Shown here: in pieces, positions 27,809 to 41,698 of the stretch
How positions within the stretch are numbered: the first letter of the stretch is position 1
How the letters are laid out: each line of letters starts with the position of its first letter
DNA from: Propionivibrio dicarboxylicus
GTDB taxonomy: Bacteria > Pseudomonadota > Gammaproteobacteria > Burkholderiales > Rhodocyclaceae
Assembly: GCF_900099695.1 (NCBI RefSeq)
Contig: NZ_FNCY01000001.1
Span: 372,001-436,000 of the forward strand
DNA length: 64,000 nucleotides
Direction of reading: 5' to 3'
Position numbers and translations under genes: made by a program
The notes under the pieces: generated by a model
The model's input: the letters and a program-made list of their open reading frames with translations, nothing else
The model's database searches: none
Told to the model about the DNA's origin: nothing

Positions 27809-27836
27809 ACGGATTCACCACGCCGCCCGGCGATAA

Positions 27837-28043
27837 TCAGGCCTGTCCGCGATTGAGCACTTCCAGCCCATACAACCCCTGGGCCAGCTCGCGCAGTGCG
27901 ATCACCGTCGGTTTGTCGCGATCGACATCGACCATCGGCGACGCGCCCGACGTGATCTGACGGGCACGGTAGGTCGCTGCCAATGTCATCTGGAAACGGT
28001 TCGGGATGCTGTGAATACAATCGTCAACGGTAATTCTGGCCAT
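27837..28043 (-). CDS. rpoZ: RNA polymerase omega subunit
   Basis: 68 residues, matching the omega family: [29 protein letters not shown], then [14 protein letters not shown] near the C-terminus. It binds the beta-prime subunit and, with it, forms a (p)ppGpp site, which fits its position between gmk and spoT. The ATG at 28043 has CAGGA about 11 bases upstream. Confidence 0.95.
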
Positions 28044-28058
28044 GATGAATCCTGGTGG

Positions 28059-28670
28059 TTATCGGAGAAGTGCGGCAAATAGCGCCGAATGTCGCTGCCG
28101 CTGGCTTTCGTACTGCAGACGGGAGGCGAAAATCACCGACTGGAGATTCGCCAGCGCCTGGTGCAGGTCGTCGTTGATGATAACATAGTCGAACTCATCC
28201 ACATGCCTCATCTCGTCGCGCGCGGCCGCCATCCGGCGAGCGATGGTCTCCGCCGAATCGGTTCCCCGTCCTGACAAACGCTCCTGCAAAGTCACCAGCG
28301 AGGGCGGCAGAATGAACACCCCGATCGCAGCCGGAAAGGCTTTGCGCACCTGTTGCGCGCCTTGCCAGTCGATTTCGAGCAGAACATCGCGCCCCGCCTC
28401 CATCTGTTCGGCAATCCACTGCTTCGACGTACCGTAATAATTTCCGTGCACCTCGGCCCATTCGAGGAACGCCCCTTCGCCGATATGCTCCAGGAAAATC
28501 GGCACGTCGACAAAATGGTATTCCCGCCCGTCCTGCTCCCCCGGCCGGGGCAGCCGGGTCGTCGTCGACACGGACAGGCAGATATCGGGATCGTTTTCCA
28601 GTAGCAGTCGAACCAACGTGGTTTTCCCGGCCCCGGATGGCGCGGCGACGATATAAAGATGACCTGTCAT
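28059..28670 (-). CDS. gmk: Guanylate kinase
   Basis: 203 residues. P-loop APSGAGKTTL near residue 9. The GMP-binding segment includes STTTRLPRPGEQDGREYHFV, GAFLEWAEVHGNYYGT and LLEIDWQGAQQV, followed by the lid SGRGTDSAETIARRM. It phosphorylates GMP to GDP. First gene of the gmk-rpoZ-spoT-tatD block. The yicC gene often found upstream is absent; instead the strand switches to the envelope locus. Confidence 0.96.
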   Translation of the reverse strand: MTGHLYIVAAPSGAGKTTLVRLLLENDPDICLSVSTTTRLPRPGEQDGREYHFVDVPIFLEHIGEGAFLEWAEVHGNYYGTSKQWIAEQMEAGRDVLLEIDWQGAQQVRKAFPAAIGVFILPPSLVTLQERLSGRGTDSAETIARRMAAARDEMRHVDEFDYVIINDDLHQALANLQSVIFASRLQYESQRQRHSALFAALLR

Positions 28671-28873
28671 AAACAGCGATCCTTGATTTCAGTTTCCCTA
28701 CCGATTCAAACCGTATTGTACCCGCGAACGCATCACGGACAGGCGTGCCCGGAGGACGTGCACAGTTGACGTGCATTTGGCATCAATTGCCATGCGACGC
28801 AGACTAAAATGTAGGAGAATGATTACAAATACATTCCGTTTGCGTAACACGGAAAACGCGAGGGGATCAGGAC

Positions 28874-30337
28874 ATGGGCACGAGGGGATTCGGGCTGTTC
28901 GTCGTCGCAGGGACCGTTCTTCTGGGCGGCTGTGCGGGAAATCCGATGCGCCAGTACGACAGCGAGCTGCGGGAAACGGTGCAACTCGTGCAAGGCGGCT
29001 CGGTCAAGAAGGCCTTCGACCTGCTTGAGAAAAACAATGAACCCGGCGTCCTCGTCAAGGACAAGGATCTCCTCTATTACCTCGAAAAGGGGGAGTTGCT
29101 CGCGCTCGACAGCAGCTATCCCGCCAGCAAGGACTCCTGGCTCAAAGCCGATGAATTCATCCGCGACTGGGAGGATGCGGTCAAGTCCGACGCCAACAAG
29201 GTGCTCGGCGACATCGGCAGTTACCTGATCAACGACAAGACCCGGCGTTATGACGGCCAGGACTTTGAAAAAGTAATGCTGTCGACGAAGCTGATGCTCA
29301 GCCACATCATGCAAGGCAGTTACGATCTCGCGCGCATCGAGATGAAAAAAACGGTCGAGCGCGAAAAGCTGATCGAAAGCTTCCGGGAGAAGGAATACGA
29401 CAAACTGCAGGAAGACGCCAAACAGCAGGACGTCGGCATCACGGTCAAGGACATGAAGGGTTATCCCATGGCTGAACTTGATGCACCCGAAGTCACGGGA
29501 CTCAAGAACGGCTACCAGAACGCGCTCTCGCATTACCTCGCCGGCTATTTCTTTGAAGTCACCGGCGAACCGTCAATGGCCGAACCCGGCTATCGCAACG
29601 CCCTGCAACTGGCGCCGAATTTGCGCATCACCCAGGCCGGACTGCGCGAGATAGGACGCCGCAAGCCCGGCCCGAAAGAATCGGACGTGCTGTTCATCAT
29701 CGAATCGGGCTTCGCCCCGGCCTGGAAATCGATCACCGTGCCGATTCCGATCCCGACCGGCAAGAAAGGGCTGATTGCCACGCCACTGTCATTCCCGCTG
29801 GTCAAATCCGAATACAAAGGTTTTGTCCCGAATGCGATCAATGCCGGAAAGCGACAGATCCCGGTGGAAACACTGGCTAATCTGGATGTCATGGCCAGAC
29901 GCCAGCTCAAGGATCAAATGCCCGGCATTGTGCTGCGTACGGTCATTCGCGCCGTTCTGAAATCCGTCGCCCAGGAGCAGGCCAACAAGGCCGGCGCCGT
30001 CACCGGACTGCTGACCACGGCCGTCAGTGTGGTCAGCGAACAAGCCGACGATCGCAGCTGGCGAATGCTCCCCGAGCGGATCTCAGTCGCTCGCGCCACC
30101 TTGCCCGTCGGTACTCAATCGATCGAATTTCAAACCGGAAGCGGCACTTTCCGTAAGGACGTCGACATCGGCAACCGCTTCACGATTATCCCGATCCGCC
30201 TGACCGGTGGAACCGTCTACGTTGGACAACCGAACACCCCCGGCGCCATTGCCATCGCCGAAGAACCAGAACCCCCTGCCAAAGCCCCGGCCGCCAAACG
30301 TCCGGCACCGCGACGCCCGGCCAAGAAGGCCGAATAG
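28874..30337 (+). CDS. COG3014-type lipoprotein, first gene of the envelope locus
   Basis: 487-residue predicted lipoprotein. The lipobox VLLGGC places the lipidated cysteine at residue 20. The body is helical and TPR-like at the start (SELRETVQLVQGGSVKKAFDLLEKN), then a mixed domain (YPMAELDAPEVTGLKNGYQNALSHYLAGYFFEVTGEPSMAEPGYRNALQLAP), ending in a Pro/Ala/Lys-rich tail. It resembles the uncharacterised COG3014 proteins usually encoded beside YcfL-like and LpoB-like genes, exactly as here. It probably resides in the periplasm or outer membrane. Function unknown; a part in peptidoglycan or outer-membrane assembly is inferred from neighbours. The 203-bp upstream region holds a TAAAAT -10-like element. 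Confidence 0.75.
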   Translation: MGTRGFGLFVVAGTVLLGGCAGNPMRQYDSELRETVQLVQGGSVKKAFDLLEKNNEPGVLVKDKDLLYYLEKGELLALDSSYPASKDSWLKADEFIRDWEDAVKSDANKVLGDIGSYLINDKTRRYDGQDFEKVMLSTKLMLSHIMQGSYDLARIEMKKTVEREKLIESFREKEYDKLQEDAKQQDVGITVKDMKGYPMAELDAPEVTGLKNGYQNALSHYLAGYFFEVTGEPSMAEPGYRNALQLAPNLRITQAGLREIGRRKPGPKESDVLFIIESGFAPAWKSITVPIPIPTGKKGLIATPLSFPLVKSEYKGFVPNAINAGKRQIPVETLANLDVMARRQLKDQMPGIVLRTVIRAVLKSVAQEQANKAGAVTGLLTTAVSVVSEQADDRSWRMLPERISVARATLPVGTQSIEFQTGSGTFRKDVDIGNRFTIIPIRLTGGTVYVGQPNTPGAIAIAEEPEPPAKAPAAKRPAPRRPAKKAE

Positions 30338-30360
30338 GGCAAGCCCATCAGGAGACGCTC

Positions 30361-31743
30361 ATGAAACGCATACTCATCATTCTTTGCTGCTTGCTGGGTC
30401 TTTCCGGACAACTTCTCGCTGCCGAACGGCGGGTGGCGCTCGTTATCGGCAATAACGCCTATCAAAACCTGCCCAAACTCGAGAAGGCGACCAACGATGC
30501 CAACGCCATCGCCGCCGAACTCAAGAAGGTCGGCTTCGAAGTCGACGCCTTCAACAACATTGGCCAGAAGAAAATGAACCAAGCCATCAACGAGTTCGTG
30601 CAAAAGGTTTCCGGCGGCGGCGTCGGCGTTTTCTTCTATGCCGGACACGGCGTTCAAATCGACAATCAGAACTACCTGATCCCGGTAGACATGGATCCAC
30701 CGAAGGATCCGGCCGACGTCGCCGACCAGGCGGTCAGCATTCCGCGACTGCAGGACAAACTCGCCGATGCCAAGGCCAAGTACACGCTGCTCGTGCTTGA
30801 CGCGTGTCGCAACAACCCGCTTCCGCGCAAAGCCGGACGCTCGATCGGCGCAACCCGCGGCCTGGCGATGACGAGTTCGCCCAGCGGCCAGACGGTGCTC
30901 TATTCGGCCGGCGCCAATCAGGAAGCGCTCGACGCCCTCGACGACAAGGATCGCAACCCGAACGGACTGTTCACCCGCGAATTCCTGCCGTTGATTTCAA
31001 AACCCGGCATCAGCGCAGTCGAGGCCATCCGACAAACACGGTCGATCGTCAAACAGAAGGCGAGGAGCGTCAGCCACGACCAGGACCCGGCCTATTACGA
31101 TCAATCCGACGGCGACTTCTATTTCGTTTCGGCACCGACGCAGATGGCAATGGCTTCCGGCGGTGCAGCGCCTGCCGTCATGCAGACGGTCGATCCGCGC
31201 GCCCTCGAACTGTCCTTCTGGGACAGCATCAAGGACAGCAAGAATCCGGACGATTTCAAGGACTACCTCGGCAAATACCCGAGCGGACAATTCGCTGGTC
31301 TCGCCAACCGCCGGATCACCGCGCTCAGCCAGGCACCCGCCGCACAGCAAGCCGTGACACGCAGCAGCGAAGCGACCGCCGCCCCGGCCTATGCACCGCA
31401 ACAGGTCGCCATGGCCGCACCGAGCGCTGCACCGACCATCGCTAGTAAGATCGAGGAGCAGGGCAGAATGACCTACCTCAAGGTCACCGACCTGCGCGCC
31501 GTCAAACGCGACAACCTGCTGCGCATCCAGGCCGAAATCTCCAACACAAGCGACAGCAACCAGCAACTCTACTATCGCTTCAAATGGCTCGATCAGGACG
31601 GTTTCGCCGTGTGGGACGAAGAACCCTGGAAGCCGCTGATCGTTTATGGCGCTCAAAAGCAAACCATAAACGTCGTGTCGCCCACGTTCAAGGCCACCGA
31701 CTTCCGCCTGATCCTGCAAAGCCCGAACAATCGAGGCCAGTAG
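30361..31743 (+). CDS. Exported caspase-domain (C14) protein fused to a YcfL-like domain
   Basis: 460 residues. Signal peptide (LIILCCLLGLSGQLLAA). The caspase/metacaspase p20-like domain spans about 24-260: VALVIGNNAYQN, then His96 in FFYAGHGVQ and Cys149 in LVLDACRNNP, an intact catalytic dyad. A linker follows (FWDSIKDSKNPDDFKDYLGKYPSGQFAGLA, common in such proteins), then an Ala/Pro-rich stretch. The C-terminal 110 residues (YLKVTDLRAVKRDNLLRIQ..., YYRFKWLDQDGFAVWDEEPWKPL) match YcfL/DUF1425. YcfL is normally a separate lipoprotein gene between COG3014 and LpoB; here it appears fused to the protease. The ATG at 30361 follows CAGGAGACGCTC. Confidence 0.82.
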   Translation: MKRILIILCCLLGLSGQLLAAERRVALVIGNNAYQNLPKLEKATNDANAIAAELKKVGFEVDAFNNIGQKKMNQAINEFVQKVSGGGVGVFFYAGHGVQIDNQNYLIPVDMDPPKDPADVADQAVSIPRLQDKLADAKAKYTLLVLDACRNNPLPRKAGRSIGATRGLAMTSSPSGQTVLYSAGANQEALDALDDKDRNPNGLFTREFLPLISKPGISAVEAIRQTRSIVKQKARSVSHDQDPAYYDQSDGDFYFVSAPTQMAMASGGAAPAVMQTVDPRALELSFWDSIKDSKNPDDFKDYLGKYPSGQFAGLANRRITALSQAPAAQQAVTRSSEATAAPAYAPQQVAMAAPSAAPTIASKIEEQGRMTYLKVTDLRAVKRDNLLRIQAEISNTSDSNQQLYYRFKWLDQDGFAVWDEEPWKPLIVYGAQKQTINVVSPTFKATDFRLILQSPNNRGQ

Positions 31744-31833
31744 CATAACGACGACTCGCTATACTGACAGGAGTACAGGGAGAGAACTGCTTGGTCCGGC
31801 ATCATCACCATCATCAACAAAGGAGACTTGTTC

Positions 31834-32451
31834 ATGAACGCAACGCTTCGTTCGAGCCGCGGCATCCCATTGCTAACCGGACTACTCATGCTCGCCCTGG
31901 CAGGATGCCAGACGACATCGCCGACAACGGGATCGAGCGGTGTCAGCTACGGTGACTCCAAGGCTGTCGAGACGGTCACAACCGATCTCGGCTCCACCGA
32001 CATCCAGATGATTTCGGAAAAAATGACACAGTCACTGATCCAGCACCCTGTCATTCAGGATCTGATCAAGAAGCGCGGCCTGATGATGGCTTCGCCGGTG
32101 CAGAATAAGACCAGCGAATACTTCGACACGAAGCTGATTACCGACACTGTTCTGACGCAACTGCAAAAGAACGGCGTCCGCTATGTCATCGAAGCCGACA
32201 ACATGCAGAACCAGGTCGACGAACTTCGCCGGCAGTCGCAGTCGGGCCTTTATGACAAATCGAAGTCGGTGCGCGTCGGGCGCATGCAGGGCGCAAAATT
32301 TCGCCTGGATGGCAGCATTTCCTCGATCGTCAAACGCGGCAGCGACATCAAGGACGTGTACTACAAGATGAACCTGCGCCTGATCGAAATTGAATCAGGG
32401 ATTGTCGAGTGGTCTGACGAAAAGGATATCCGCAAGACCGCGCGGCGCTGA
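31834..32451 (+). CDS. lpoB: LpoB-like penicillin-binding protein activator lipoprotein
   Basis: 205 residues. The lipobox LALAGC places the lipidated cysteine at residue 25. The domain resembles LpoB (STDIQMISEKMTQSLIQHP, ASPVQNKTSEYFDTKLITDTVLTQLQKNGVRYVIE, GAKFRLDGSISSIVKRGSDIKDVYYKMNLRLIEIESGIVEWSDEKDIRKT). In E. coli LpoB reaches from the outer membrane to activate PBP1b. The start is the ATG at 31834 with AGGAG at eight bases; a TTG two codons earlier is ignored. It may activate peptidoglycan synthesis, or have been recruited to this locus. Confidence 0.82.
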   Translation: MNATLRSSRGIPLLTGLLMLALAGCQTTSPTTGSSGVSYGDSKAVETVTTDLGSTDIQMISEKMTQSLIQHPVIQDLIKKRGLMMASPVQNKTSEYFDTKLITDTVLTQLQKNGVRYVIEADNMQNQVDELRRQSQSGLYDKSKSVRVGRMQGAKFRLDGSISSIVKRGSDIKDVYYKMNLRLIEIESGIVEWSDEKDIRKTARR

Positions 32452-32481
32452 TCGTCATTCCATTTGCAAGAAGGACAGCTC

Positions 32482-33324
32482 ATGCAAATCACTCGCCGAC
32501 TTACTCGCCTTTTCGCGCTCGGCGCGCTCTGCGCGATGATCAACGGCGGCGCCCTGGCGGCACCGCCGCCCAAGGTCGCTGTCACCGATCTCGCCTATGA
32601 GGAGCGCGTCAGCGAATACTTCAAGACCGTCTCGGCCTCCGAGCGCTCTTCGCTGCGCGCCTCCGGCAGGGAAAGCGAACGCGAATCCGACGCCGGCTAT
32701 TCGCGCCGCAGCAGCGGTTCGCTCAACGCCCAGTCGGAGAGCAGCTATTACTCGAACGAAGGCACCTACAGCTACATCGAAATCGGCGAACTGCGCAAAT
32801 TCACCGCCGACATCAAAGGCGGCATCCTGCGCACCGGGCGCTTCGAACTCGTCCAGGGCAAGCCCTTTACGGCGCGCAACAACGAGAAGCTTTATGACAT
32901 CGTCGGGCGCATCAAGCAAGGCATGTTCCCCGGTGCCGACTATGTACTCTTCGGTACCGTCAGCAGTATCGAGTTTCGTCAGGAAGCCAATCCCATCGAC
33001 AACACCAACACCGTCTCGCACACCCTGAGCCTTGAACTCGTCGGCGAATTCAGCCTGATCAGCACCAAGACCTTCAAGGTTAGCTCTTCCTTCAGCGCGA
33101 TGGGAACCGGGCAGGATGTCAAATTGCTGTCCAGTCGGGGAGGGCGCGTCGTCCTGAGCCGAGGCAAGGTGATCTCGGAAGTATCGAAGAGCCTGGGCGA
33201 AGACGTCAGCCGCCAAATGGAAGAACAACTCAGCGGAATTTATGCCGATACCGGCGATCGCGACGGTGGCATGCCACCGCGTGAGAGCGGCGGTCGCCGT
33301 GAAGAGGTGATCATCTTCAAGTAG
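32482..33324 (+). CDS. Exported CsgG/LpoB-fold protein
   Basis: 280 residues. Signal peptide (LFALGALCAMINGGALAA) with no lipobox cysteine. The start APPPKVAVTDLAYEERVSEYFKT resembles the N-terminal strand of CsgG/LpoB-fold proteins. A Ser/Arg/Glu-rich low-complexity segment follows (about 45-90), then GELRKFTADIKGGILRTGRFELVQGKPF, GADYVLFGTVSSIEFRQEANPIDNTNTVSHTLSLELVGEFSLI and a C-terminal helical region. Family membership is by pattern only. The ATG at 32482 has AAGGA nine bases upstream. Last gene of the plus-strand COG3014-caspase-LpoB unit, followed by a terminator. Confidence 0.65.
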   Translation: MQITRRLTRLFALGALCAMINGGALAAPPPKVAVTDLAYEERVSEYFKTVSASERSSLRASGRESERESDAGYSRRSSGSLNAQSESSYYSNEGTYSYIEIGELRKFTADIKGGILRTGRFELVQGKPFTARNNEKLYDIVGRIKQGMFPGADYVLFGTVSSIEFRQEANPIDNTNTVSHTLSLELVGEFSLISTKTFKVSSSFSAMGTGQDVKLLSSRGGRVVLSRGKVISEVSKSLGEDVSRQMEEQLSGIYADTGDRDGGMPPRESGGRREEVIIFK

Positions 33325-33346
33325 ACCAATGGCATCCGATCCATCA

Positions 33347-33376
33347 GGCCGCCCGTCGATGACGGCGGCCTTTTTT
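33347..33376 (+). terminator. Rho-independent terminator of the COG3014-caspase-LpoB-CsgG-like unit
   Basis: GGCCGCC (33347-33353) and GGCGGCC (33364-33370) flank CGTCGATGAC, which adds further pairs, followed by TTTTTT. Confidence 0.88.
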
Positions 33377-33404
33377 CATCGGACGGCCGCCCGACGCTGC
33401 CTGC

Positions 33405-33731
33405 TTATTTACCGATCGCGCCAACCTCGTTACGCGCTGCGTTACCCAATCCCTGTGCGCTCGTATTCATGTTCCTGGCATTGGCCTTGACGCTGGTATT
33501 GCCCTGAATCTGAACGGCGCTACTGCCGACCTGTTGCGAAGCAGCCGCATCCTTTTCATCGGCGAAGGAAGCCACGCCGGCCTTGCCGCCCAATTCGCCG
33601 CCGGTTGCTGCGCCAGCATCGCGGATCTGCAACCCCGTCGGACTGCTCGAGCGCTGCACGACTTCGTTCGCCGGCTGAGCCTGCACCGCCAGGGCCACCA
33701 AGACTAATGAACACGCGAGATAAGTTTTCAT
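33405..33731 (-). CDS. Small exported protein with one 30-residue Asn/Gly repeat
   Basis: 108 residues. Signal peptide (MKTYLACSLVLVALAVQAQ). A variable middle is followed by one copy (77-106) of a 30-residue unit that starts GNTSVKANARNMNTSAQ, continues GLGNAARNEVGAI and ends with the terminal GK. It matches the two repeats in the protein encoded at 33838-34170 and the one at 35252-35560. No known family recognised; alternating residues with regularly spaced G-N suggest stacked short beta-strands, as in curlins. The ATG at 33731 follows TGGAGGGCGC. It stands after the terminator of the upstream minus-strand genes, so it may be transcribed separately. Confidence 0.7.
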   Translation of the reverse strand: MKTYLACSLVLVALAVQAQPANEVVQRSSSPTGLQIRDAGAATGGELGGKAGVASFADEKDAAASQQVGSSAVQIQGNTSVKANARNMNTSAQGLGNAARNEVGAIGK

Positions 33732-33784
33732 GCGCCCTCCAGAGGATCGCGTCGCGGTCGTGCGTCGGTTGACGCACTCAGACG

Positions 33785-33824
33785 AAAAAGCCCAAAGGGC
33801 CTGAACACCCTCTGGGCTTTTCCG
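33785..33824 (-). terminator. Rho-independent terminator downstream of the two-repeat protein gene
   Basis: On the minus strand GCCCAGAGGG and CCCTTTGGGC form an imperfect stem around a 9-nt loop, followed by TTTTTC. It lies 14 bp after the stop of the gene at 33838. Confidence 0.75.
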
Positions 33825-33837
33825 CTAAATGGGACGC

Positions 33838-34170
33838 TTACTTGCCGCCGATCACGCCGACATCGTTGGTGGCCGTGTTGCCCTTGCCGACGGCAACGGC
33901 GTTCACATTCTTGGCACTGGCATTGATGTTGGTGTTGCCCTTGATGTTGGTGCCGCCCTTGATCGCGCCGACCGCATTCTTGGCCGTGTTGCCCTGGCCG
34001 ACCGCGACCGCATTCACGTTCTCGGCACTCGCCTTGATATTGGTATTGCCCTGAATATTCACGCCTCCGGAAGTCGCCTGAACACTTCCCGGCGTAGCCT
34101 GGACACCTGCCTGGGCGAAAGCCAGCGTTGAAGCAGCCATCGTAGCGATAATGAAAAGTGATTTACGCAT
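33838..34170 (-). CDS. Small exported protein with two curlin-like 30-residue repeats
   Basis: 110 residues. Signal peptide (MRKSLFIIATMAASTLAFAQ). The mature protein is essentially two repeats, residues 41-70 and 78-107, identical at 24 of 30 positions. Consensus: GNTNI-x-ASA-x-NVNAVAVG, then x-GNTA-x-N-x-VG-x-I. The G-x-GN-x-A element recalls CsgA/CsgB repeats, and the even spacing of polar and small residues suits a beta-solenoid or amyloid stack. There is no cysteine. It ends IGGK. The ATG at 34170 lies behind AAGGGG. It probably belongs to the minus-strand unit that starts at 35560. The best candidate for a fibre subunit in this locus. Confidence 0.75.
   Translation of the reverse strand: MRKSLFIIATMAASTLAFAQAGVQATPGSVQATSGGVNIQGNTNIKASAENVNAVAVGQGNTAKNAVGAIKGGTNIKGNTNINASAKNVNAVAVGKGNTATNDVGVIGGK
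33850..34050 (-). repeat. Two in-frame repeats of a 30-codon unit
   Basis: Unit 1 is 34050-33961 and unit 2 is 33939-33850, with a start-to-start period of 37 codons. The DNA is also similar, for example GGCAACAC...AACGTGAA in both. Related single units lie at 33405-33731 and 35252-35560. Confidence 0.85.
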
Positions 34171-34247
34171 GATAGAGACCCCTTATAAAGAAGGTGAACA
34201 ATTACCCCGCGCGAACCCTCGCTTCGGGGGTGCTGCCAAAACACCGC

Positions 34248-34931
34248 TTAACCGATAATGCGGAACTGCACTCTCCGGTTCTTCGGATTCGATGCATCCA
34301 ACCCTTCCAGCGGCTCGCTGAATCCTTTGCCAACCGGCATAAGACGAGTTGGATCGATGCGATAGTGATCAATCAGATAATTGACCACCGAATACGCCCG
34401 CTCACGCGACAGCGAATTGTTTCGTGCCGAACTGCCCGAACTGTCGGTATGCCCCTCAACCATCAAGCGAACGCCCGGATCTTTCTGCATCAAACCGGCG
34501 ATCGACTCAAGGAACGGGATCGATTCCGGCATGATGTCTGAACTGTTCACACGAAAGTTGATCGGGAAGGCAATCGCATTCGTACCAACCTGAACGGACT
34601 GCTGCTGCGGCTGCGGACGGGCGGCCTGCGCCTGCCCTTGCGACTGTGTCTGTTGTGGCCGCGGCGCTTGGGCTTGCGGCGCTGGCGCCGGTGCGGGCGC
34701 AGCTTGCGGCGGCGCAGCTTCTTGCGGCGCTGGTGCCGCATCGCCGAAAACGATGGCACGTGTCCTCGGCTTTGACCGAGGCGCCCCTTCGTCGCTACCC
34801 GTCAATTGCCGTTGCAATTCCTCGACACTGGGCGCCTTGTCATACACCTTGACGTCGGCGGCGACAGCGCTGCCGGTCGCTAAACCGAAGGCAAGCAACA
34901 ACGCGGCCGTGATCAGTTTATTTGCATACAT
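34248..34931 (-). CDS. OmpA-family protein with Pro/Ala/Gln-rich linker
   Basis: 227 residues. Signal peptide (LITAALLLAFGLATGSAVAA). A short N-terminal segment is followed by a long Pro/Ala/Gln linker (about 65-115) and a C-terminal OmpA-like peptidoglycan-binding domain (INFRVNSSDIMPESIPFL, VRLMVEGHTDSSGSSARNNSLSRERAYSVVNYLI, LMPVGKGFSEPL, NRRVQFRI). No OmpA beta-barrel and no lipobox. It probably ties the locus to the cell wall. The ATG at 34931 has GAAGGAG upstream and overlaps the end of the preceding gene by 14 bp, so the two are co-translated. Confidence 0.88.
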   Translation of the reverse strand: MYANKLITAALLLAFGLATGSAVAADVKVYDKAPSVEELQRQLTGSDEGAPRSKPRTRAIVFGDAAPAPQEAAPPQAAPAPAPAPQAQAPRPQQTQSQGQAQAARPQPQQQSVQVGTNAIAFPINFRVNSSDIMPESIPFLESIAGLMQKDPGVRLMVEGHTDSSGSSARNNSLSRERAYSVVNYLIDHYRIDPTRLMPVGKGFSEPLEGLDASNPKNRRVQFRIIG

Positions 34932-35238
34932 TGATGATCTCCTTCGAAGTCACGATGACATCCTTCGAGTTTTTGTCTCCGGGCTGGGTCGATCCAATAT
35001 TCATATTACAGGTACCGGCTTTCTTGCTGCCAATATTCACCTGGCTCTGCTGCTGCATGCGCGAATATCCATCGGTATTACCACTTTGCATATAGCCGCG
35101 GGCAAGCGCCTTATTGACCTTGCTTTGTCCCGATGTCTGAAGATGCGTGCCTTTATTGATATCGGCAGAAGCCTGCGTGACAAAGCCCGCCAGGGAAAAA
35201 ACGGAGAGTATCAACACGGTTCGCATAAAAAATTTCAT
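34918..35238 (-). CDS. Small exported Gln/Ser/Asn-rich protein with C-terminal Cys...Cys-Lys tail
   Basis: 106 residues. Signal peptide (MRTVLILSVFSLAGFVTQASA). The mature part is rich in Q, S, N and G (KVNKALARGYMQSGNTDGYS, MQQQSQVNIGSKKAG) and ends TCNMNIGSTQPGD...EIINVCK. Two cysteines frame the last 32 residues. The same kind of tail ends the proteins at 35252-35560 and 37332-37817. The ATG at 35238 has GGGAGGA about ten bases upstream. Not recognised as a known family; a secreted minor subunit or adaptor is possible. Confidence 0.65.
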   Translation of the reverse strand: MKFFMRTVLILSVFSLAGFVTQASADINKGTHLQTSGQSKVNKALARGYMQSGNTDGYSRMQQQSQVNIGSKKAGTCNMNIGSTQPGDKNSKDVIVTSKEIINVCK

Positions 35239-35251
35239 CGCCAGTTCCTCC

Positions 35252-35560
35252 CTATTTGCATTCGGGATCAGCGCCTTTTACGCCGATATTGATGCACCCC
35301 TTGCGACCATGACCGGTGACGACATTCGATACGTTCTTGACATCGACCGACACGTTGCCGCCGCCCTTCGCCCCGCTCTTGACGCTGCCGATGCTGGTGC
35401 GCGCAACGTTGTTGCTGCCCGCTGCGATCGTATTGATGTTTTCGGCGTTGACGTTGATGTTGGTATTGCCGCGCACGGCCCCGCCTTGCGTTTGCGCAGA
35501 GGCACTCGCTGCGATGAAGACGCCCAAAGCAGCCGCAACACATAAATTACTTATTATCAT
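35252..35560 (-). CDS. Small exported repeat protein with C-terminal Cys-Lys tail
   Basis: 102 residues from the ATG at 35560, preceded by GGGGGAGG; the frame is open 25 codons upstream without SD support. Signal peptide (NLCVAAALGVFIAASASA). Residues 31-60 are one 30-residue unit (GNTNINVNAENINTIAAG, then SNNVARTSIGSV). A degenerate second unit follows (GNVSVDVKNVSNVVTGHG), then the tail GCINIGVKGADPECK. It combines the repeat of the 33838-34170 protein with the cysteine tail of its downstream neighbour. First gene of the minus-strand unit, divergent from the CsgG-domain lipoprotein. Confidence 0.7.
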   Translation of the reverse strand: MIISNLCVAAALGVFIAASASAQTQGGAVRGNTNINVNAENINTIAAGSNNVARTSIGSVKSGAKGGGNVSVDVKNVSNVVTGHGRKGCINIGVKGADPECK

Positions 35561-35673
35561 GGCCTCCCCCGTGTCGAGTCCGACTTTAGCGCCAGAAGCG
35601 CCGTCAAGTATAGACGCCGCGTTCCCACTCAACAAGCAATCATGTCACTTTAACGCGCCTTGATTTCGCCGGT

Positions 35674-35685
35674 TGACATGTGTCA
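35674..35685. promoter_or_regulatory. Palindrome in the divergent promoter region of the secretion locus
   Basis: TGACA-TG-TGTCA is perfect and overlaps a TTGACA that could be a -35 for the plus-strand genes; the matching -10 (GGCAAT at 17 bp) is poor. A TATGAT at about 35727 is an alternative -10. The site is a candidate operator controlling both arms, but evidence is limited to position and symmetry. Confidence 0.3.
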
Positions 35686-35781
35686 GGATAGTCCCGGCAA
35701 TGCATGGTTTCCAGAAATTCCGACTATGATGTATTAAATGGTCCAACAAAAACGCAGCGTACTTTTTCCAAGGAATTCATT

Positions 35782-37305
35782 ATGGTCCGCGCATATGAAA
35801 AATCCCGTCTCGTCATCGCTGCGTTAAGCCTCACCAGTGCGTTGGCCGCGTGCGTGGCCGACCCGCCAAAGCCGGAAACGGCAACCGTTGCGACAGCAGT
35901 CAAGACCCCGGTAGCAAAGACGGTCACGAATTTCACCCCGGCGCTGCGCTGCATGGACGATCTGATGCTGGCGTACGGCAAGCGGGATATTGTCATCACC
36001 ACGGCCGGCATCCCGGACTCCACCGGAAAAGTCATGGCGGGAACGAAGGAAATGTTGATCAGCGCGGCATCGCGCATGTCGGTCAAGAGCAAGGCGCTTT
36101 CCTTCATCGACTATGACACCGAACGCAACGACCTGCTGGCGCTATTCCAGGACATGCAGGCAGCAGGCGCCTTCCAGCACAAACTGCCGAACTACTACAT
36201 CCGCGGCGCCATCACCCAGCTCGATGAAAACGCCATCGACTCGCAACGCGGTGGCGGCATCGCCCTTCCCTGGCTCGACCTTGGTCTGAGCAAGGACCAG
36301 GTGTCATCGGTCGTTTCGATGGACATGAACATCGGCGAAACCACGACCCGCATGATCATGCCGGGCATGAACGCTAGTAACTCACTGGTCATTACGCGCG
36401 CCGGCAATTCCAAGGAAGCGGGCGGCAAGATCGGGCAAGTCGGATTCTCATTCAACATGTCGCTCAACAAAGCCGAAGGACTCGGTTCCGGCGTACGCGC
36501 GCTGGTCGAACTCGGCATGATCGAGGTCGTCGGCAAGCTGACCGGCGTTCCGTATTGGAAGTGCCTCGAAATCGACAAGACCAATCCGGTGATGCTCCAG
36601 CAGGCGCGCGACTGGTATGACGCAATGACACCGACAGACCGCGTCAAGCTCGTGCAACGCAAGCTCGGTGGCATGAATTACTACAATGGCCCGATCAACG
36701 GAGCCACTTCACGCGAGTTGTCGAGCGCCATCGGACGTTACCAGGCCGAGAACCAGCTTGTCGCCGACGGACGGATCAACTTCGATCTGTATTACGCGCT
36801 GCTCGATGCCGACCAACCGATCGTTGAAGATCCTACCGCCAAGCCCACCACAATCGCCGCCACACCGCGGCCGGATAGCCAGCAAGGACCGCTGACCGTG
36901 AAGCTCGACAGCGATCGCGGCAATCGCCCAACCTACCGTGTGCGTGAGTTGTTGAAGGCACGGGTTCAGATGAGCGGCGATGGTGTGCTGTACTGCTATT
37001 ACCGCGATATCTCCGGAACGATCGCCCGCATCCACCCGAATCGTTTCAGTCCCGATCCGTTCATGAAGAGCAATGTGGCGATCTCGCTGCCGCCGGAAAA
37101 TTCGCCCTTCCAGATCAAGTTCGACAGACCGGGGAAGGAGCAGATCGTCTGTTACGGCAGCAATCGCGACCTGGCCTTGCCGGCGGCCCTCAAGGCAGCG
37201 GACCTGACGCCGCTGAAGGTCGGTTCGATGGATGAAATCGGTAAAGCTTTCCGTGCATCGAATCCTTCGGTCGCGGAAGCCAAGCTCGACATCACCATTC
37301 AGTAG
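35782..37305 (+). CDS. CsgG-domain lipoprotein with peptidoglycan-binding and DUF4384 modules
   Basis: 507 residues. The lipobox ALAAC places the lipidated cysteine at residue 24. Residues about 70-290 follow the CsgG/HfaB plan: VITTAGIPDSTGKVMAGTKE-type start, MLISAASRMSV, FIDYDTERNDLLALFQD, NYYIRGAITQLDENAIDSQ, then pairs of long strands with GGGIALPWLDLGLSKDQ, DMNIGETTTRMIM and SLVITRAGNSKEAGGKIG, and the terminal helix region RALVELGMIEVVGKLTG. Next comes a PG_binding_1-like domain (300-365: KLVQRKLGGMNYYNGPINGA, SAIGRYQAENQLVADGRIN). The end is DUF4384-like (YRVRELLKARVQMSGDGVLYCYY... RIHPNRF). Predicted outer-membrane secretion pore anchored to the wall. The ATG at 35782 follows AAGGAATTCATT. 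First gene of a five-gene operon. Confidence 0.82.
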   Translation: MVRAYEKSRLVIAALSLTSALAACVADPPKPETATVATAVKTPVAKTVTNFTPALRCMDDLMLAYGKRDIVITTAGIPDSTGKVMAGTKEMLISAASRMSVKSKALSFIDYDTERNDLLALFQDMQAAGAFQHKLPNYYIRGAITQLDENAIDSQRGGGIALPWLDLGLSKDQVSSVVSMDMNIGETTTRMIMPGMNASNSLVITRAGNSKEAGGKIGQVGFSFNMSLNKAEGLGSGVRALVELGMIEVVGKLTGVPYWKCLEIDKTNPVMLQQARDWYDAMTPTDRVKLVQRKLGGMNYYNGPINGATSRELSSAIGRYQAENQLVADGRINFDLYYALLDADQPIVEDPTAKPTTIAATPRPDSQQGPLTVKLDSDRGNRPTYRVRELLKARVQMSGDGVLYCYYRDISGTIARIHPNRFSPDPFMKSNVAISLPPENSPFQIKFDRPGKEQIVCYGSNRDLALPAALKAADLTPLKVGSMDEIGKAFRASNPSVAEAKLDITIQ

Positions 37306-37331
37306 TCGTCGGAGAATGACAGGAGGCTGCC

Positions 37332-37817
37332 GTGACCCTTCGGACAGTAGCCATTTCGGCAGCGCTCCTGATGTCGCTTGCGCAGGCTGGCGAGATCATC
37401 ATTCAGCCATCCGGAACGCAGACCCGGACGGAAAAGGAGGCCAGCCGTTCGGCGGCTTCCGCACGTAACCGAGTCGACGGCAAGAAGGCTCCGGTAGTTA
37501 TCGAAGACGGTTTCGTCGACAGCGGCAGCCAGGCGCAACGGCTCGGTCAGGATGCACAGGAATATCTGCGCTCGGGCGGTGCGCCGCCCAGCGATGAAAA
37601 AACCACCATCATCTTGCGCAACGCCCCGCAAAGCGACGCCGACAAATCCCGGCAACGCGCCGCGGCGTATGTGCCGGGCAACAACGCGGCAAACAACCGC
37701 GCCTGCGGCGACGTCTCGATCACGGTAGGTGCCATCGGCGACAAGACCGTGGTTGATCGCAACACATCGGTCAACGAACGGGGTAACTCCGCCGTTAACG
37801 TGAACTGCAAGAAGTGA
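37332..37817 (+). CDS. Exported protein with C-terminal Cys...Cys-Lys beta segment
   Basis: 161 residues. The start is GTG at 37332 behind a strong AGGAGG. Signal peptide (TVAISAALLMSLAQAG). A charged middle (about 30-115) leads to CGDVSITVGAIGD, DRNTSVNERGNSAVNVNCKK, with cysteines at about 125 and 159. The VGAIG, NTSVN and GNSAVN pieces echo the 30-residue repeats of the minus-strand proteins, in a shifted order. Follows the CsgG-domain lipoprotein by 26 bp and overlaps the next gene region. Unknown family; probable secreted partner of the same system. Confidence 0.68.
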   Translation: MTLRTVAISAALLMSLAQAGEIIIQPSGTQTRTEKEASRSAASARNRVDGKKAPVVIEDGFVDSGSQAQRLGQDAQEYLRSGGAPPSDEKTTIILRNAPQSDADKSRQRAAAYVPGNNAANNRACGDVSITVGAIGDKTVVDRNTSVNERGNSAVNVNCKK

Positions 37818-37837
37818 GTTCACTGCGAGGTCGTGCC

Positions 37838-38206
37838 ATGAAAAGATCCCCGAAACGCTGGATCATCCCCCTGGGCAGCCTGTTCTGTACAAGCTTGGCG
37901 TTCGCACAAGTCAGCGTCAGTACGCCAGGACAAGGCGTCGTCATCCAGCGCGACGGGCAGGTCAGCGTACAAGCCGGTGCCTTCGCGGGAGGGCGCGGCA
38001 AGAACGAAGCCAGCGTCGTCGTCGGCCACATCGCCGATGACGCCAACATCGAAGGCGTGACGGTCATCAACGGACGCGTCACGATCGACGGCAAGGACGT
38101 TCCCGCCAACGCGACCCGATATACCTCGCCCCGTACCGGCAAGGTGTATTCGATTCAGCGCAACGGCGGCTCGGTCAGCGTGAACGAGATAGGAGGCGGA
38201 AAATGA
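37838..38206 (+). CDS. Small exported beta-rich protein
   Basis: 122 residues from the ATG at 37838 (GCGAGG upstream); a GTG at 37814 overlapping the preceding stop would add eight residues. Signal peptide (WIIPLGSLFCTSLAFAQ). The mature protein is almost all short strands: VSVSTPGQGVVIQRDGQVSV, GKNEASVVVGHIADDANIEG, VTVINGRVTIDGKDVPANA, VYSIQRNGGSVSVNEIGGGK. There is no cysteine, and it ends in lysine like its relatives. Not recognised. The V-x-V and G-x-I spacing suggests a beta-solenoid-like secreted protein. Its stop overlaps the next start (ATGA). Confidence 0.68.
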   Translation: MKRSPKRWIIPLGSLFCTSLAFAQVSVSTPGQGVVIQRDGQVSVQAGAFAGGRGKNEASVVVGHIADDANIEGVTVINGRVTIDGKDVPANATRYTSPRTGKVYSIQRNGGSVSVNEIGGGK

Positions 38207-38805
38207 ACCGCAAACATTTCCTTCGTCGCGCCCCACAAATGACGCGCCTCGCGGCGCTGACCGGCTTGCTGCTTCTCGGTGCGCCGGCAGGCGCTGAAAT
38301 CATCCTGCTCGCCAATGGGACAGCAACCTCCGCCGACGCCGAGTTCATGTACGCGCATCCGCGCATGCGCTCCGTCGTCTTCGCGACCGCCTATGCACGC
38401 GACCAGGCCATCCTCCCGCCATCGCCGTATTTCGTCATGCCGGCGCCTTTACTGATGCGCCCCGGCGGCCCCTACATCGCCTATCCCCCGGTCGCCTACC
38501 GGCCCGGCGTCAACGTGCCCGCGCACCCCAGTAATCGCGACAACGCCACCTACGCCCTGACACGCGCGCACGCGTTCGGCCAGGAACTTTACACCACCGG
38601 CACCTACGCCAATCCCGGCACGACGCCGACCCTGTACGCCTCGCCGTATGGCTATGGTTATGGCTACGGACTGATGCCCGCCTACCCTCCTGTCAATACG
38701 CGCCCCGGCTTCAACCAGCCCTCGCACCCGAGCAATCGCGACAACACCACCTACAACCTGGAACGGGCACACCGCTTCAGCATGGACGCTTACCGTAGGC
38801 CATGA
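38203..38805 (+). CDS. Exported protein with duplicated HPSNRDN motif
   Basis: 200 residues. Signal peptide (LAALTGLLLLGAPAGA). Two copies of a motif of about 30 residues lie near 102-131 and 164-193: PGVNVPAHPSNRDNATYALT + RAHAFGQELY and PGFNQPSHPSNRDNTTYNLE + RAHRFSMDAY. Between and around them are Pro/Tyr/Gly-rich stretches (ASPYGYGYGYGLMPAYPP). Unknown family. Located between two translationally coupled genes (ATGA at both ends), so its product is probably needed in fixed ratio with them. It may be a wall- or fibre-binding accessory protein. Confidence 0.62.
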   Translation: MNRKHFLRRAPQMTRLAALTGLLLLGAPAGAEIILLANGTATSADAEFMYAHPRMRSVVFATAYARDQAILPPSPYFVMPAPLLMRPGGPYIAYPPVAYRPGVNVPAHPSNRDNATYALTRAHAFGQELYTTGTYANPGTTPTLYASPYGYGYGYGLMPAYPPVNTRPGFNQPSHPSNRDNTTYNLERAHRFSMDAYRRP

Positions 38806-39701
38806 CCCAGCACTTTGCCCGCGGCCTTGCCCAACTATGCCTCGTCGCAGCGCTGTTGCTGTCGCCGGTCGTTCATGCGCAGGACGCTAGTCCTTACGCG
38901 TTGCCATCGAGCCAGGCAGCCGATTACGCCGCCATTCTCAACCAACGTGCCGATCAGGTGACGCTCTTCGATTACGGTCCACGCGCGCTGATCCGCATCA
39001 TCGATTTCCCAAACTTGCAGGAGCAGGGGCGGATGTTCAACCGTGTCGTCGCGCTGGTCGAACGCATCGGCGCACCGCGGTCGCGCGTGCTCAACAACGA
39101 CGAGCTTGCACAATTCATTCGCTCGGTCGGCAAGAGCGACGCAACCTTCGCCTACGGCAACGATTTTCTCGTGTCCGAACTCGTCGTCTTCTTCAATCTC
39201 GCCGACATGGGCGGCATCCGACTGAACGCCGAAGAGATCGCCTTGCGGAAAATGCTCATCGAATCGCGCTGGATGGTGGAGCGCAATGGCTTCTTCCAGG
39301 CGCTCAAACCGCAGGCGGTCATTCTCTCGATCCCGCAAGCCAGTGATCGCACCAGTCCGCCGGTATCCGTACAGGCGCGGACGACGATCCTCATGCACGA
39401 GATCAGTCACGCCGAGTACTACACCAATCCGCTCTACGCCAACTATTGCCGCCACTTCTGGCGCAACGTGTTGAACGACGGCCAGCGCAACGCTTTCCGG
39501 AAATTCCTGTCGGGCAGCAGCTACAACCCCGACAACGAAGAAATGATGATCAACGAGACCCAGGCCTACCTGCTCTACACCCCCGACCCGCGCGCCTTCA
39601 ACGCCCGCCTTGTCGGCATGAAGGACAAGGACATCGAATCCCTGCGCGCCCGTTTCTTCGCCGGTTTTCCCGACGCGCCGCTGGCGGAAATGCGGCGCTG
39701 A
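38802..39701 (+). CDS. Exported zinc metallopeptidase-like protein (HExxH)
   Basis: 299 residues. Signal peptide (LAQLCLVAALLLSPVVHAQ). HEISH at 199-203 (TTILMHEISHAEYYTNP) is a canonical HExxH zinc site, and E252 in MMINETQAYLLY, 49 residues downstream, is a good third ligand, which would make it a gluzincin. The N-terminal half (LFDYGPRALIRIIDFP, YGNDFLVSELVVFFNLADMGG, QALKPQAVILSIPQA) matches no family I can name. Last gene of the CsgG-lipoprotein operon, coupled by ATGA to the preceding gene. It may process or shed the secreted subunits. Confidence 0.72.
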   Translation: MTQHFARGLAQLCLVAALLLSPVVHAQDASPYALPSSQAADYAAILNQRADQVTLFDYGPRALIRIIDFPNLQEQGRMFNRVVALVERIGAPRSRVLNNDELAQFIRSVGKSDATFAYGNDFLVSELVVFFNLADMGGIRLNAEEIALRKMLIESRWMVERNGFFQALKPQAVILSIPQASDRTSPPVSVQARTTILMHEISHAEYYTNPLYANYCRHFWRNVLNDGQRNAFRKFLSGSSYNPDNEEMMINETQAYLLYTPDPRAFNARLVGMKDKDIESLRARFFAGFPDAPLAEMRR

Positions 39702-39748
39702 GCCAACGCCGCGACAGTCTCGGTATCTCTATCGACGGGGTGCGACGC

Positions 39749-40300
39749 TCACACGCCCTTGAGTCGTAGCGGCAGACCGGCCGCCACCAGCGAAACCGAA
39801 TCGCACACCGCAGCGACGCGCTGGTTGAGGCGGCCCTGTTCGTCGGCAAACAAGCGCGATACAGCATTCATCGGCACGATGCCGCAACCCACCTCGTTCG
39901 ACACCATGATGACCCGCCCCGGCAGGCGCGGCAACACCGCGATCAGGGCATCGGTTTCAGCGGCGAAGAGCGGACAGGTCGGCGCCTCGCCCGCCTCGGC
40001 CTGACGCGCGGCCTCACCGGCGAACAGGGTGTTGGTCAGCCAAAGCGTCAGACAATCGACAAGCAGACAGGTGTCCGGACGGGCGTGCTGCTCGAGCGTC
40101 TCCGCCAGTTTCAGTGGCGATTCTACGAGGCCCCAATCGGCCGGCCGGCGCGCGCGATGCACGGCAACCCGACGTTCCATCTCGCCGTCGAGCACCTGCG
40201 CCGTCGCCACATAGACGACATGCAGGCCGCTATCGACGGCCCGTTGTTCTGCATAGGCGCTTTTTCCGGAACGCGCCCCTCCCAGGATCAGTTCTTTCAT
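39749..40300 (-). CDS. cobU: Adenosylcobinamide kinase / guanylyltransferase CobU (CobP)
   Basis: 183 residues. P-loop LGGARSGKSAYAE at the N-terminus. The guanylylated-His region VATAQVLDGEMERRVAVHRARRP lies near 31-53. DTCLLVDCLTLWLTNTLF and RVIMVSNEVGCGIVP follow, as in CobU. It phosphorylates adenosylcobinamide and transfers GMP to it, the step before CobS joins the lower ligand. Divergent from cobS-cobC, so a small nucleotide-loop-assembly cluster. No cobalamin riboswitch was seen in the 142-bp intergenic region. Confidence 0.95.
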   Translation of the reverse strand: MKELILGGARSGKSAYAEQRAVDSGLHVVYVATAQVLDGEMERRVAVHRARRPADWGLVESPLKLAETLEQHARPDTCLLVDCLTLWLTNTLFAGEAARQAEAGEAPTCPLFAAETDALIAVLPRLPGRVIMVSNEVGCGIVPMNAVSRLFADEQGRLNQRVAAVCDSVSLVAAGLPLRLKGV

Positions 40301-40308
40301 CCGCCAAG

Positions 40309-40336
40309 CTTAGCATGAGATTCCTCGGTCTATAAT
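40309..40336 (+). promoter_or_regulatory. Putative cobS promoter
   Basis: A consensus -10 TATAAT (40331-40336) with a weak -35 (CTTAGC, 40309-40314) at 16 bp. It implies transcription from about 40343 and rules against an in-frame ATG at 40335 as the cobS start, since that would lie within the -10. Confidence 0.5.
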
Positions 40337-40442
40337 GGCGCGCAGAATTGCGATTCGCGTCATGCCGGACGACTTTTCCGCGTCTTCCCGGCGACGCCCG
40401 AAGCCGCTTCGCCCATCCTCGACCCCACGCTTTCCGCCCCTC

Positions 40443-41198
40443 ATGTCATTCCGTTCCGAACTCGAAACCCTGGCCGGCGCCCTCCGCTTTTTCACGCGAC
40501 TTCCCTTGCCCGGTGCGCTCGGCCACAGCGGCTTCGCGCTGCAAAAATCGATCCGCTATTTCCCGCTCGCCGGCGCCGTCGTCGGCGCCCTCGGCGCCGC
40601 AGTCTTCGCCTTCTGCATGCTGTTCTGGCCGAAAACCCTGGCCGTGCTCGCCGCCATCGCCGCCATCGTCTATTTCACCGGCGCCATTCACGAAGACGGT
40701 TGGGGCGACATGGTCGATGGCTTCGGCGGCGGCTGGGACAAGCAACGTATCCTCGACATCATGAAGGATTCGCGCGTCGGCAGCTTCGGCGTCGTCGCCG
40801 TCACGCTGATGCTGCTGATGCGCTTTATCGCGCTGGTCGAAATCGACACGGCACTGATCCCGATCACGCTGATCGCCGGCCATGCCTTCTCGCGGCTTTG
40901 CGCAACGCTGATCCTGGCGACGATGGACTACGTGCGCGATCAGGGCAAGGCCAAGCCCTTCGACAACCGCCTCGGTGCTTTTGGCATATTCTGCGCCGGC
41001 TTCGCCGCGCTGGTGCCGCTCGGCGGACTGCCGCCGACCCAAGCGTTCACCGCCGTCATCGCCGCGCTGCTCGCCACCGCTTGGCTGGCGCGCCTGTTCA
41101 AGACCCGCATCGGCGGCTATACCGGCGATTGCCTCGGCGCGACGCAGCAACTGGCCGAAATCGCCTTCTACGGGGGCCTGTTGTGCAGGTTTTCCTGA
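40443..41198 (+). CDS. cobS: Adenosylcobinamide-GDP ribazoletransferase (cobalamin synthase)
   Basis: 251 residues from the ATG at 40443 (E. coli CobS 247). The start RSELETLAGALRFFTRLPLP is typical. The catalytic aspartate-rich segment is HEDGWGDMVDGFGGGWDKQRILDIMKDSRVGSFGV near 82-116. Multiple membrane helices follow, then GGYTGDCLGATQQLAEIAFY at the end. It joins adenosylcobinamide-GDP with alpha-ribazole (phosphate) in the inner membrane. No clear SD before the ATG. Overlaps cobC by 16 bp. Confidence 0.93.
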   Translation: MSFRSELETLAGALRFFTRLPLPGALGHSGFALQKSIRYFPLAGAVVGALGAAVFAFCMLFWPKTLAVLAAIAAIVYFTGAIHEDGWGDMVDGFGGGWDKQRILDIMKDSRVGSFGVVAVTLMLLMRFIALVEIDTALIPITLIAGHAFSRLCATLILATMDYVRDQGKAKPFDNRLGAFGIFCAGFAALVPLGGLPPTQAFTAVIAALLATAWLARLFKTRIGGYTGDCLGATQQLAEIAFYGGLLCRFS

Positions 41199-41698
41199 TC
41201 CGCCATCCGCGTCCGACGATCCCCGCCGGCATCTGCTACGGCCAGCTGGACGTCGAATGCGACGATCCGGTGCCGATCGCCGAGCGGCTTCGCCCGGCGC
41301 TGCCGCCCGGCACGCCCGTCATCAGCAGTCCGCTACGCCGTGCCCGCGGTCTGGCCGAGGCGCTCGACCCGAACGTCCGGATCGACGCGCGTCTCTGTGA
41401 AATCCATTTCGGCGACTGGGAAGGGCAGGGCTGGGATGCGATCGACCGATCGGCCCTCGACGCCTGGGCGGCCGATGTCCTGAACTACATGCCCCCCAAC
41501 GGCGAGTCGGTCGCCGATCTGCAGCGACGTGTCCTCGACTTTGCCGATTGGCTCGAACAGCAGACCTTGCCAAACATCGCTATCGTCGCTCACGCCGGTG
41601 TCCTGCGCGTTCTGGTCGGGCACTGGCGACAGCTGCCGGCTGAAGTCTGGACACAACTCCCGTTCGAATTCGGCAGCCTGACCGAGGTCACACTATGA
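41183..41698 (+). CDS. cobC: Alpha-ribazole phosphatase-like histidine phosphatase
   Basis: 171 residues from GTG at 41183. Histidine-phosphatase fold: FLIRHPRPTIPAGICYGQLD at the N-terminus, with RHP in place of the usual RHG, SSPLRRARGLAEAL, the acid residue in CEIHFGDWEGQGWDAID, and the second histidine in IAIVAHAGVLRVL. It removes phosphate from alpha-ribazole-5-P or adenosylcobalamin-5-P. The RHP variant is common in CobC relatives. Overlaps cobS and is coupled to the next gene by ATGA. Confidence 0.88.
   Translation: MQVFLIRHPRPTIPAGICYGQLDVECDDPVPIAERLRPALPPGTPVISSPLRRARGLAEALDPNVRIDARLCEIHFGDWEGQGWDAIDRSALDAWAADVLNYMPPNGESVADLQRRVLDFADWLEQQTLPNIAIVAHAGVLRVLVGHWRQLPAEVWTQLPFEFGSLTEVTL

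Follow-up and report, generated by a model that had tools for sequence, protein, structure and literature searches.

Background

Most of what is known of CsgG-type pores comes from curli and the holdfast anchor. In the window analyzed here, the whole stretch of 64,000 nucleotides from Propionivibrio dicarboxylicus (contig NZ_FNCY01000001.1, positions 372,001 to 436,000 of the forward strand), a block of 14 genes consists of two adjoining units, genes 1-4 (28874-33324) and genes 5-14 (33405-39701). The second unit, which encodes the exporter lipoprotein of gene 10, assigned by profile comparison to the CsgG/HfaB superfamily, is the finding reported in this work.

In the curli system (CsgA-G, type VIII secretion) the eyelet of the CsgG pore is ~12 Å wide and lined by Tyr66, Asn70 and Phe71 (PMC7304575; here and below, statements on publications refer to the accessible parts of their text). 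Some published curli systems have no CsgE (PMC3521004), and CsgG also appears in nanopore work (PMC13397529). In the HfaA-HfaB-HfaD system of Caulobacterales, the surface localization of HfaA and HfaD depends on HfaB (PMC6707917). In a survey from 2012, curli CsgG made up only 171 of the 601 proteins that the Pfam CsgG model matched (PMC3521004), and other CsgG-type systems are therefore to be expected. Two papers on Accumulibacter attribute curli to other genera. In the accessible part of the literature, with most subscription journals outside its scope, we recognized no account of a peptidoglycan-binding or DUF4384 domain in a CsgG-family protein.

The locus resembles HfaA-HfaB-HfaD in having a CsgG-superfamily lipoprotein and repeat-rich exported partners in adjacent genes, and HfaB is the nearest known relative of gene 10 by profile score. 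The differences are: i) the gene 10 family is on a separate branch, and its eyelet region is shorter than that of HfaB in 37 of 40 members; ii) gene 10 adds wall-binding and DUF4384 domains; and iii) the partners are not detectably HfaA or HfaD, and the gene 8, repeat and gene 7 families were found at none of eight HfaB-type loci. With curli it has in common a CsgG-type exporter and short, possibly stacking repeat proteins, whereas the constriction loop is shortened in gene 10 and strict curlin motifs are few in genes 5, 6 and 9. The likeness to the Fap amyloid of Pseudomonas is limited to the Foldseek result for gene 6, in which FapC comes first without reaching significance (E of 1); a PDB sequence search did not return FapC, and the Fap exporter, FapF, is of a different family. 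The MafA/MafB system of Neisseria, compared by description only, has an outer-membrane lipoprotein called reminiscent of CsgG (PMC7738311), whereas no toxin partner was found at gene 10.

Superfamily membership and lineage of gene 10

The Pfam CsgG model (PF03783) has matches in 83 genomes of a 299-genome sample of the phylum but none in gene 10 or anywhere else in its own genome, so annotation by that model would overlook the exporter. The CsgG-type call made for this protein in the sequence-only reading was nevertheless upheld by profile-profile comparison and by the tree. The N-terminal domain scored 97.9% against HfaB (E 6e-13, 29 sequences), 98.0% against two HfaB-like proteins and 95.5% against CsgG (E 1.4e-8), where the E-values are those of single pairs and the profiles were built in this analysis. 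The control families OmpA, caspase, gene 8 and LpoB, taken from the same loci, reached at most 0.2%, and the C-terminal half of gene 10 reached at most 0.3% against CsgG and HfaB. The HfaB match of gene 10 in NCBIfam is weak (E 1.3e-5, 24.6 bits against a cut-off of 300), below what the HfaB equivalog requires. A model of nine gene 10 relatives, built without HfaB, matched one genomic place at 3e-8, and this place encodes HfaB (2.8e-123) and HfaD (1.9e-107) by NCBIfam. On these profile comparisons, gene 10 is a lipoprotein of the CsgG/HfaB superfamily.

For the collection of homologous loci, 111 of 398 genomes matched at first, mostly through short matches to the wall-binding domain, and the set was then limited to the 18 genomes, besides the window's own, that matched at 5e-53 or better; a split match in G233 and a second place in G060 were left out of the locus set. 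The exporter lineage was found under 17 family labels within Pseudomonadota (phylum by named relatives). In an unrooted maximum-likelihood tree of 52 domains, five of CsgG, eight of HfaB and 39 of the new family (L053, L062 and L007 left out), each group lies on one side of a branch with support of 100/97 or better. The gene 10 family thus appears in the tree as a lineage separate from both CsgG and HfaB.

Two side observations concern the exporter. Four genomes encode two exporter paralogues with different partners (L008/L010 in G030, L055/L064 in G263, L058/L065 in G281 and L144/L145 in G599). The CsgG part of gene 10 (residues 30-261) matches the phage family phrog_20175 (function unknown) at 1.1e-5, which raises the possibility that phages also encode proteins of the CsgG type.

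Eyelet loop and membrane-hairpin segments

The eyelet region was compared by alignment in 40 proteins, among them gene 10 and its near copy at L007; L053 and L062, which have no residues aligned there, were left out. It is 12 residues shorter than in the CsgG of L102 in 33 of the 40 members, gene 10 among them; it is 9-10 residues shorter in four (L010, L015, L060, L145) and 4 residues shorter, as in HfaB, in three (L011, L064, L065). The DxT in front of the loop is retained by 31 of these 40 members and the full DxTG by 15. As judged by this alignment, gene 10 is without the eyelet-type constriction loop of CsgG, and its channel should therefore be wider or gated otherwise. Both membrane-hairpin segments are at least as long as those of CsgG in 39 of 39 members (alignment only; L053, L062 and L007 left out).

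These data bear on a reading in which gene 10 forms no pore at all and would be an LpoB-like lipoprotein that binds the wall from the periplasm and senses or stabilizes the envelope. Consistent with it, the protein has a wall-binding domain, stands beside an LpoB-containing unit and carries a CsgG domain without the pore-lining loop. We consider it very unlikely in view of the retained length of the hairpin segments and of a score of 0.1% against the window's LpoB, for which the profile comprised only two near-identical sequences.

Conserved neighborhood of the exporter

Neighbors were counted by profiles at 40 homologous exporter loci, with the window and L007 excluded, and 13 CsgG/HfaB loci served as controls; the caspase profile was restricted to the matched domain. 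The gene 8 family is present at 27 of the 40 loci, the gene 7 family at 25, the repeat family at 18 and caspases at 12, followed by gene 14 (7/40), gene 12 (6/40), gene 11 (4/40) and gene 13 (3/40). The control loci, 12 of which are 8-12 kb long and hence shorter than most exporter loci, gave one gene 7 (OmpA) match and no other partner family. Five of the 40 loci are contigs of <7 kb, so the neighbor counts are lower bounds, and several loci come from one genus (L048-L049, L149-L151) and are therefore not independent. The window's gene order with the full set recurs in L012, from a Rhodocyclaceae genome of another collection, and in L046 and L144, from genomes of the window's family. Co-conservation of the small proteins and the OmpA protein with gene 10 is thus supported.

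Genes 1-4 as a separate unit

A single 14-gene system had been proposed from the sequence; it was rejected, since genes 1-4 occur together without the exporter elsewhere. All four genes, and no exporter-family gene in the stretch, were found at each of the four loci examined (G006, G018, G009 and G030, the last with its exporters on other contigs). A search of 28 genomes from the genus and family found the gene 1 protein in 10, and seven of these ten (G006, G008, G009, G013, G018, G021 and G022, all of the same genus) have no exporter match. Conversely, at the 40 homologous loci of the exporter (window and near copy L007 not counted), neither genes 1, 3 and 4 nor the YcfL half of gene 2 were found. 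Genes 1-4 are therefore regarded as a separate four-gene unit beside the ten-gene unit.

The annotation proposed for genes 1-4 was retained in part: Pfam identifies the caspase and DUF1425 (YcfL) domains of gene 2 and LpoB in gene 3, and the LpoB match of gene 4 is sub-threshold only. The "COG3014-like" label of gene 1 comes from the sequence-only reading and not from any search made here. A second gene 1 homologue is encoded elsewhere in the genome. As an intact unit in relatives without the exporter, genes 1-4 may merit a study of their own.

Caspases near the exporter

The caspase domain was confirmed by Pfam at 11 of the 12 loci with a caspase-profile match, L013 being the exception. A Pfam search of 20 exporter genomes gave 89 caspase matches, and 5 of 21 exporter loci have one nearby versus 0.39 expected; this search missed two profile-positive loci, L011 and L052, and some of the genomes are related, so that the statistics are not independent. 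The association of caspases with the exporter is above chance and not universal. The window's own caspase (gene 2) is encoded in the separate unit of genes 1-4. The two proteases proposed as parts of the system are consequently not equal, as caspases are near 12 of 40 exporters, with that of the window in a separate unit, and gene 14-type proteins are at 7 of 40.

A further interpretation is that gene 10 acts much as MafA does in Neisseria: caspase-like proteins or other effectors would be secreted through a channel that it forms, and the repeat proteins would serve as passengers or carriers. The caspase association and the CsgG-like description of MafA are in line with it, as is a two-partner-secretion protein of 1966 residues whose C-terminal part is a caspase domain and which is encoded directly before an exporter homologue (L008:3615-9515). 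A match to DUF4384, the domain that also ends gene 10, is seen in two neighboring caspases (L052:3536-5365 and L061:16375-17964), where it is weak and below the Pfam cut-off. However, in the stretches examined no caspase was matched at 28 of the 40 loci, and the caspase closest to the exporter in the window lies outside the exporter unit. Searches of the small proteins with Pfam, NCBIfam (gene 13 not included) and PHROGs also returned no toxin domain, and such a channel is in our view highly improbable.

Two further observations on caspases were made. The window's own genome (G000) has 14 caspase-domain matches, two of which are neighboring pieces, the most of the 20 genomes searched. In one genus, Sel1 repeats and a caspase domain are fused in a protein encoded beside the exporter (L149:5133-6764, L150:8801-10432, L151:6581-8212).

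Reading frames and partner proteins

All 14 open reading frames were recovered at about the coordinates and strands first given for them (Table 1). The starts of three were corrected (gene 3 to 31834, gene 4 to 32482 and gene 12 to 37838), the new positions being the most likely ones as judged from sequences resembling a ribosome-binding site or from an ATG codon. Export of all 14 proteins, as originally proposed, is borne out at the level of predicted signals: a simple hydropathy and cleavage heuristic finds an N-terminal hydrophobic segment and plausible signal-peptidase sites in 14 of 14, with lipoboxes in gene 1 (LGGC), gene 3 (LAGC) and gene 10 (LAAC). Besides the domains of genes 2 and 3, Pfam identifies the OmpA domain expected of the wall binder proposed for gene 7, and PG_binding_1 and DUF4384 in gene 10; it gives nothing above threshold in genes 1, 4, 5, 6, 8, 9 and 11-14. 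NCBIfam and PHROGs searches assigned the small proteins to no family, PDB sequence searches returned nothing except the wall-binding domain, an Rfam search gave nothing useful, and a scan for promoters and terminators performed no better than on shuffled sequence.

Table 1. Genes of the block at 28874-39701 (positions in the window)
Feature	Coordinates	Strand	Description	Details
Genes 1-4	28874..33324	+	Lipoprotein, caspase-YcfL fusion, LpoB, LpoB-like protein	Outside the exporter system
Gene 5	33405..33731	-	Exported protein with one repeat copy at its end; candidate minor subunit	
Gene 6	33838..34170	-	Beta-repeat protein with two 37-residue repeats; candidate surface subunit	
Gene 7	34248..34931	-	Exported OmpA-family protein; candidate peptidoglycan anchor	Pfam OmpA, 2.2e-16
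Gene 8	34918..35238	-	Small exported protein with two-cysteine C-terminal tail; the exporter's most constant neighbor	
Gene 9	35252..35560	-	Beta-repeat protein with two-cysteine tail; candidate surface subunit	
Gene 10	35782..37305	+	Exporter lipoprotein (LAAC)	CsgG/HfaB-type domain ~40-266, PG_binding_1 286-340, DUF4384 384-462
Gene 11	37332..37817	+	Exported protein with two-cysteine tail; GTG start	Tail in 5/5 members (L007 left out)
Gene 12	37838..38206	+	Small exported protein of a nameless family	
Gene 13	38203..38805	+	Exported protein with the motif NRDN-TY-L-RAH-F twice (read by eye)	
Gene 14	38802..39701	+	Exported, putatively metallopeptidase-like protein with HExxHxE and NExQAY motifs	

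The three repeat proteins proposed for the minus-strand unit (genes 5, 6 and 9) indeed have one repeat type in common. The two 37-residue copies in gene 6 are visible as 58% self-identity at an offset of 37, and a relative of gene 9 in L012 has at least three copies. In L015 and L010, large repeat proteins of 828 and 1010 residues, respectively, are encoded directly 3' of the exporter. The two-cysteine tail is found in 12 of 40 matched repeat-protein frames (L007 left out). In the gene 8 family it is kept in 27 of 28 members (L007 left out), and in L048, L049, L050 and L052 the frames of gene 8 and of the exporter overlap by ~13 bases.

Among the genes downstream of the exporter, the metallopeptidase motif recognized in gene 14 stood up: HExxH is kept in 8 of 9 profile matches and NExQAY in 7 of 9 (window and L007 included), and the match in L148 has neither. 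The three loci with gene 13 are two in the window's family and L012.

Homology of the repeats to curlin, HfaA or HfaD was rejected on the hhalign scores given below, and the "curli-like subunits" of the sequence-only reading hold by analogy only. By the strict curlin motif (as defined in PMC10192328), genes 5, 6 and 9 have 0, 1 and 0 copies versus 5-7 in four control curlins. The absence of csgE and csgF, proposed earlier, was confirmed by genome search with Pfam models that found the E. coli control (CsgD was not searched for): CsgE (PF10627) was found in none of 27 exporter genomes, the window's own included, and CsgF (PF10614) and curlin repeats (PF07012) have no match in the window's genome and were matched in one each of the 27.

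Proposed export and assembly system

We consider it somewhat probable that the products of genes 5-14 form a system of the curli/holdfast-anchor kind, with an exporter from an undescribed lineage of its own, that exports proteins across the outer membrane and assembles them at the surface into a wall-anchored layer or fiber. The predicted signals suggest that the small proteins would enter the periplasm through Sec. Gene 10 would be the pore, its N-terminal half being of the CsgG/HfaB type with both hairpin segments and its C-terminal half containing the wall-binding and DUF4384 domains. Through it the products of genes 5, 6 and 9 would reach the cell surface, and stacking of their beta-repeats may form a fiber or coat there. 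Gene 8 is probably a pore-bound cap or nucleator, because of its adjacency to the exporter and a tail pattern that it has in common with genes 9 and 11. The domains of gene 7, together with the wall-binding domain of gene 10, may tether the complex to peptidoglycan, and genes 11-14, present in fewer lineages, would have accessory roles.

Several results weigh against this export and assembly system. AlphaFold2, run on an alignment of five sequences, left the CsgG domain of gene 10 unmodelled (predicted local distance difference test, pLDDT, <50 at residues 65-276), and there is no CsgG among the 50 listed of 1272 Foldseek matches to this model. The repeats score at most 1.6% against curlin, HfaA and HfaD by hhalign (shuffled controls, at most 0.1%); the AlphaFold model of gene 6 is weak (mean pLDDT 60.1), and its six Foldseek matches, with the FapC and CsgA fibrils first, have E of 1 or more and are not significant. 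Repeats were detected at just 18 and gene 8 at just 27 of the 40 loci, and of three large repeat proteins only that of L010 fits the short repeats well (87.5% versus 15.1% for L015 and 6.5% for L062). In addition, the LpoB control profile is a narrow one of two near-identical sequences. As for the tree, the program warns that long branches meet, so the joins between groups may be false, and, being unrooted, it is silent on which two of CsgG, HfaB and the gene 10 family are nearest. The DUF4384 end of gene 10 is modelled confidently, and the gene 6 model has regular strands at modest confidence. Among the Foldseek matches listed, those of the gene 10 model are weak (E 0.001 or more), and several are beta-sandwich domains.

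The same components could form a holdfast-type anchor and not a fiber, in which gene 10 and the small proteins would make an outer-membrane plug and a short coat that tethers polysaccharide, as HfaABD does. Gene 10 scores nearer HfaB than CsgG, in three members the eyelet region equals that of HfaB in length, and HfaA and HfaD are reported to lie above HfaB as a broad layer external to the outer membrane (PMC6707917). Some relatives encode a small repeat protein, the exporter and a large repeat protein, an arrangement resembling hfaA-hfaB-hfaD. However, the repeats are not detectably HfaA (1.4% by hhalign) or HfaD (0.3%), the gene 10 family is apart from HfaB in the unrooted tree, and no polysaccharide genes were recognized by eye in 27000-42000, the genome not having been searched for them. 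We therefore regard this anchor as rather unlikely.

A more far-reaching proposal, which we find clearly improbable, is that of a third CsgG-superfamily machine. Since the pore has no eyelet, it would pass repeat subunits that are already folded, with gene 8 acting as gate and nucleator and the pore bolted to the wall by its own tail and by the OmpA protein; some bacteria would also export a dedicated caspase that matures or trims the layer.

Conclusions

A separate lineage of exporters without the constriction loop, represented in the window by a protein with a built-in wall-binding domain, would widen the possible cargo of this pore family. The proposed export and assembly system of genes 5-14 offers a possible explanation for protein surface layers where no curli genes are found, and it may be a previously undescribed way of building a protein surface layer or fiber.

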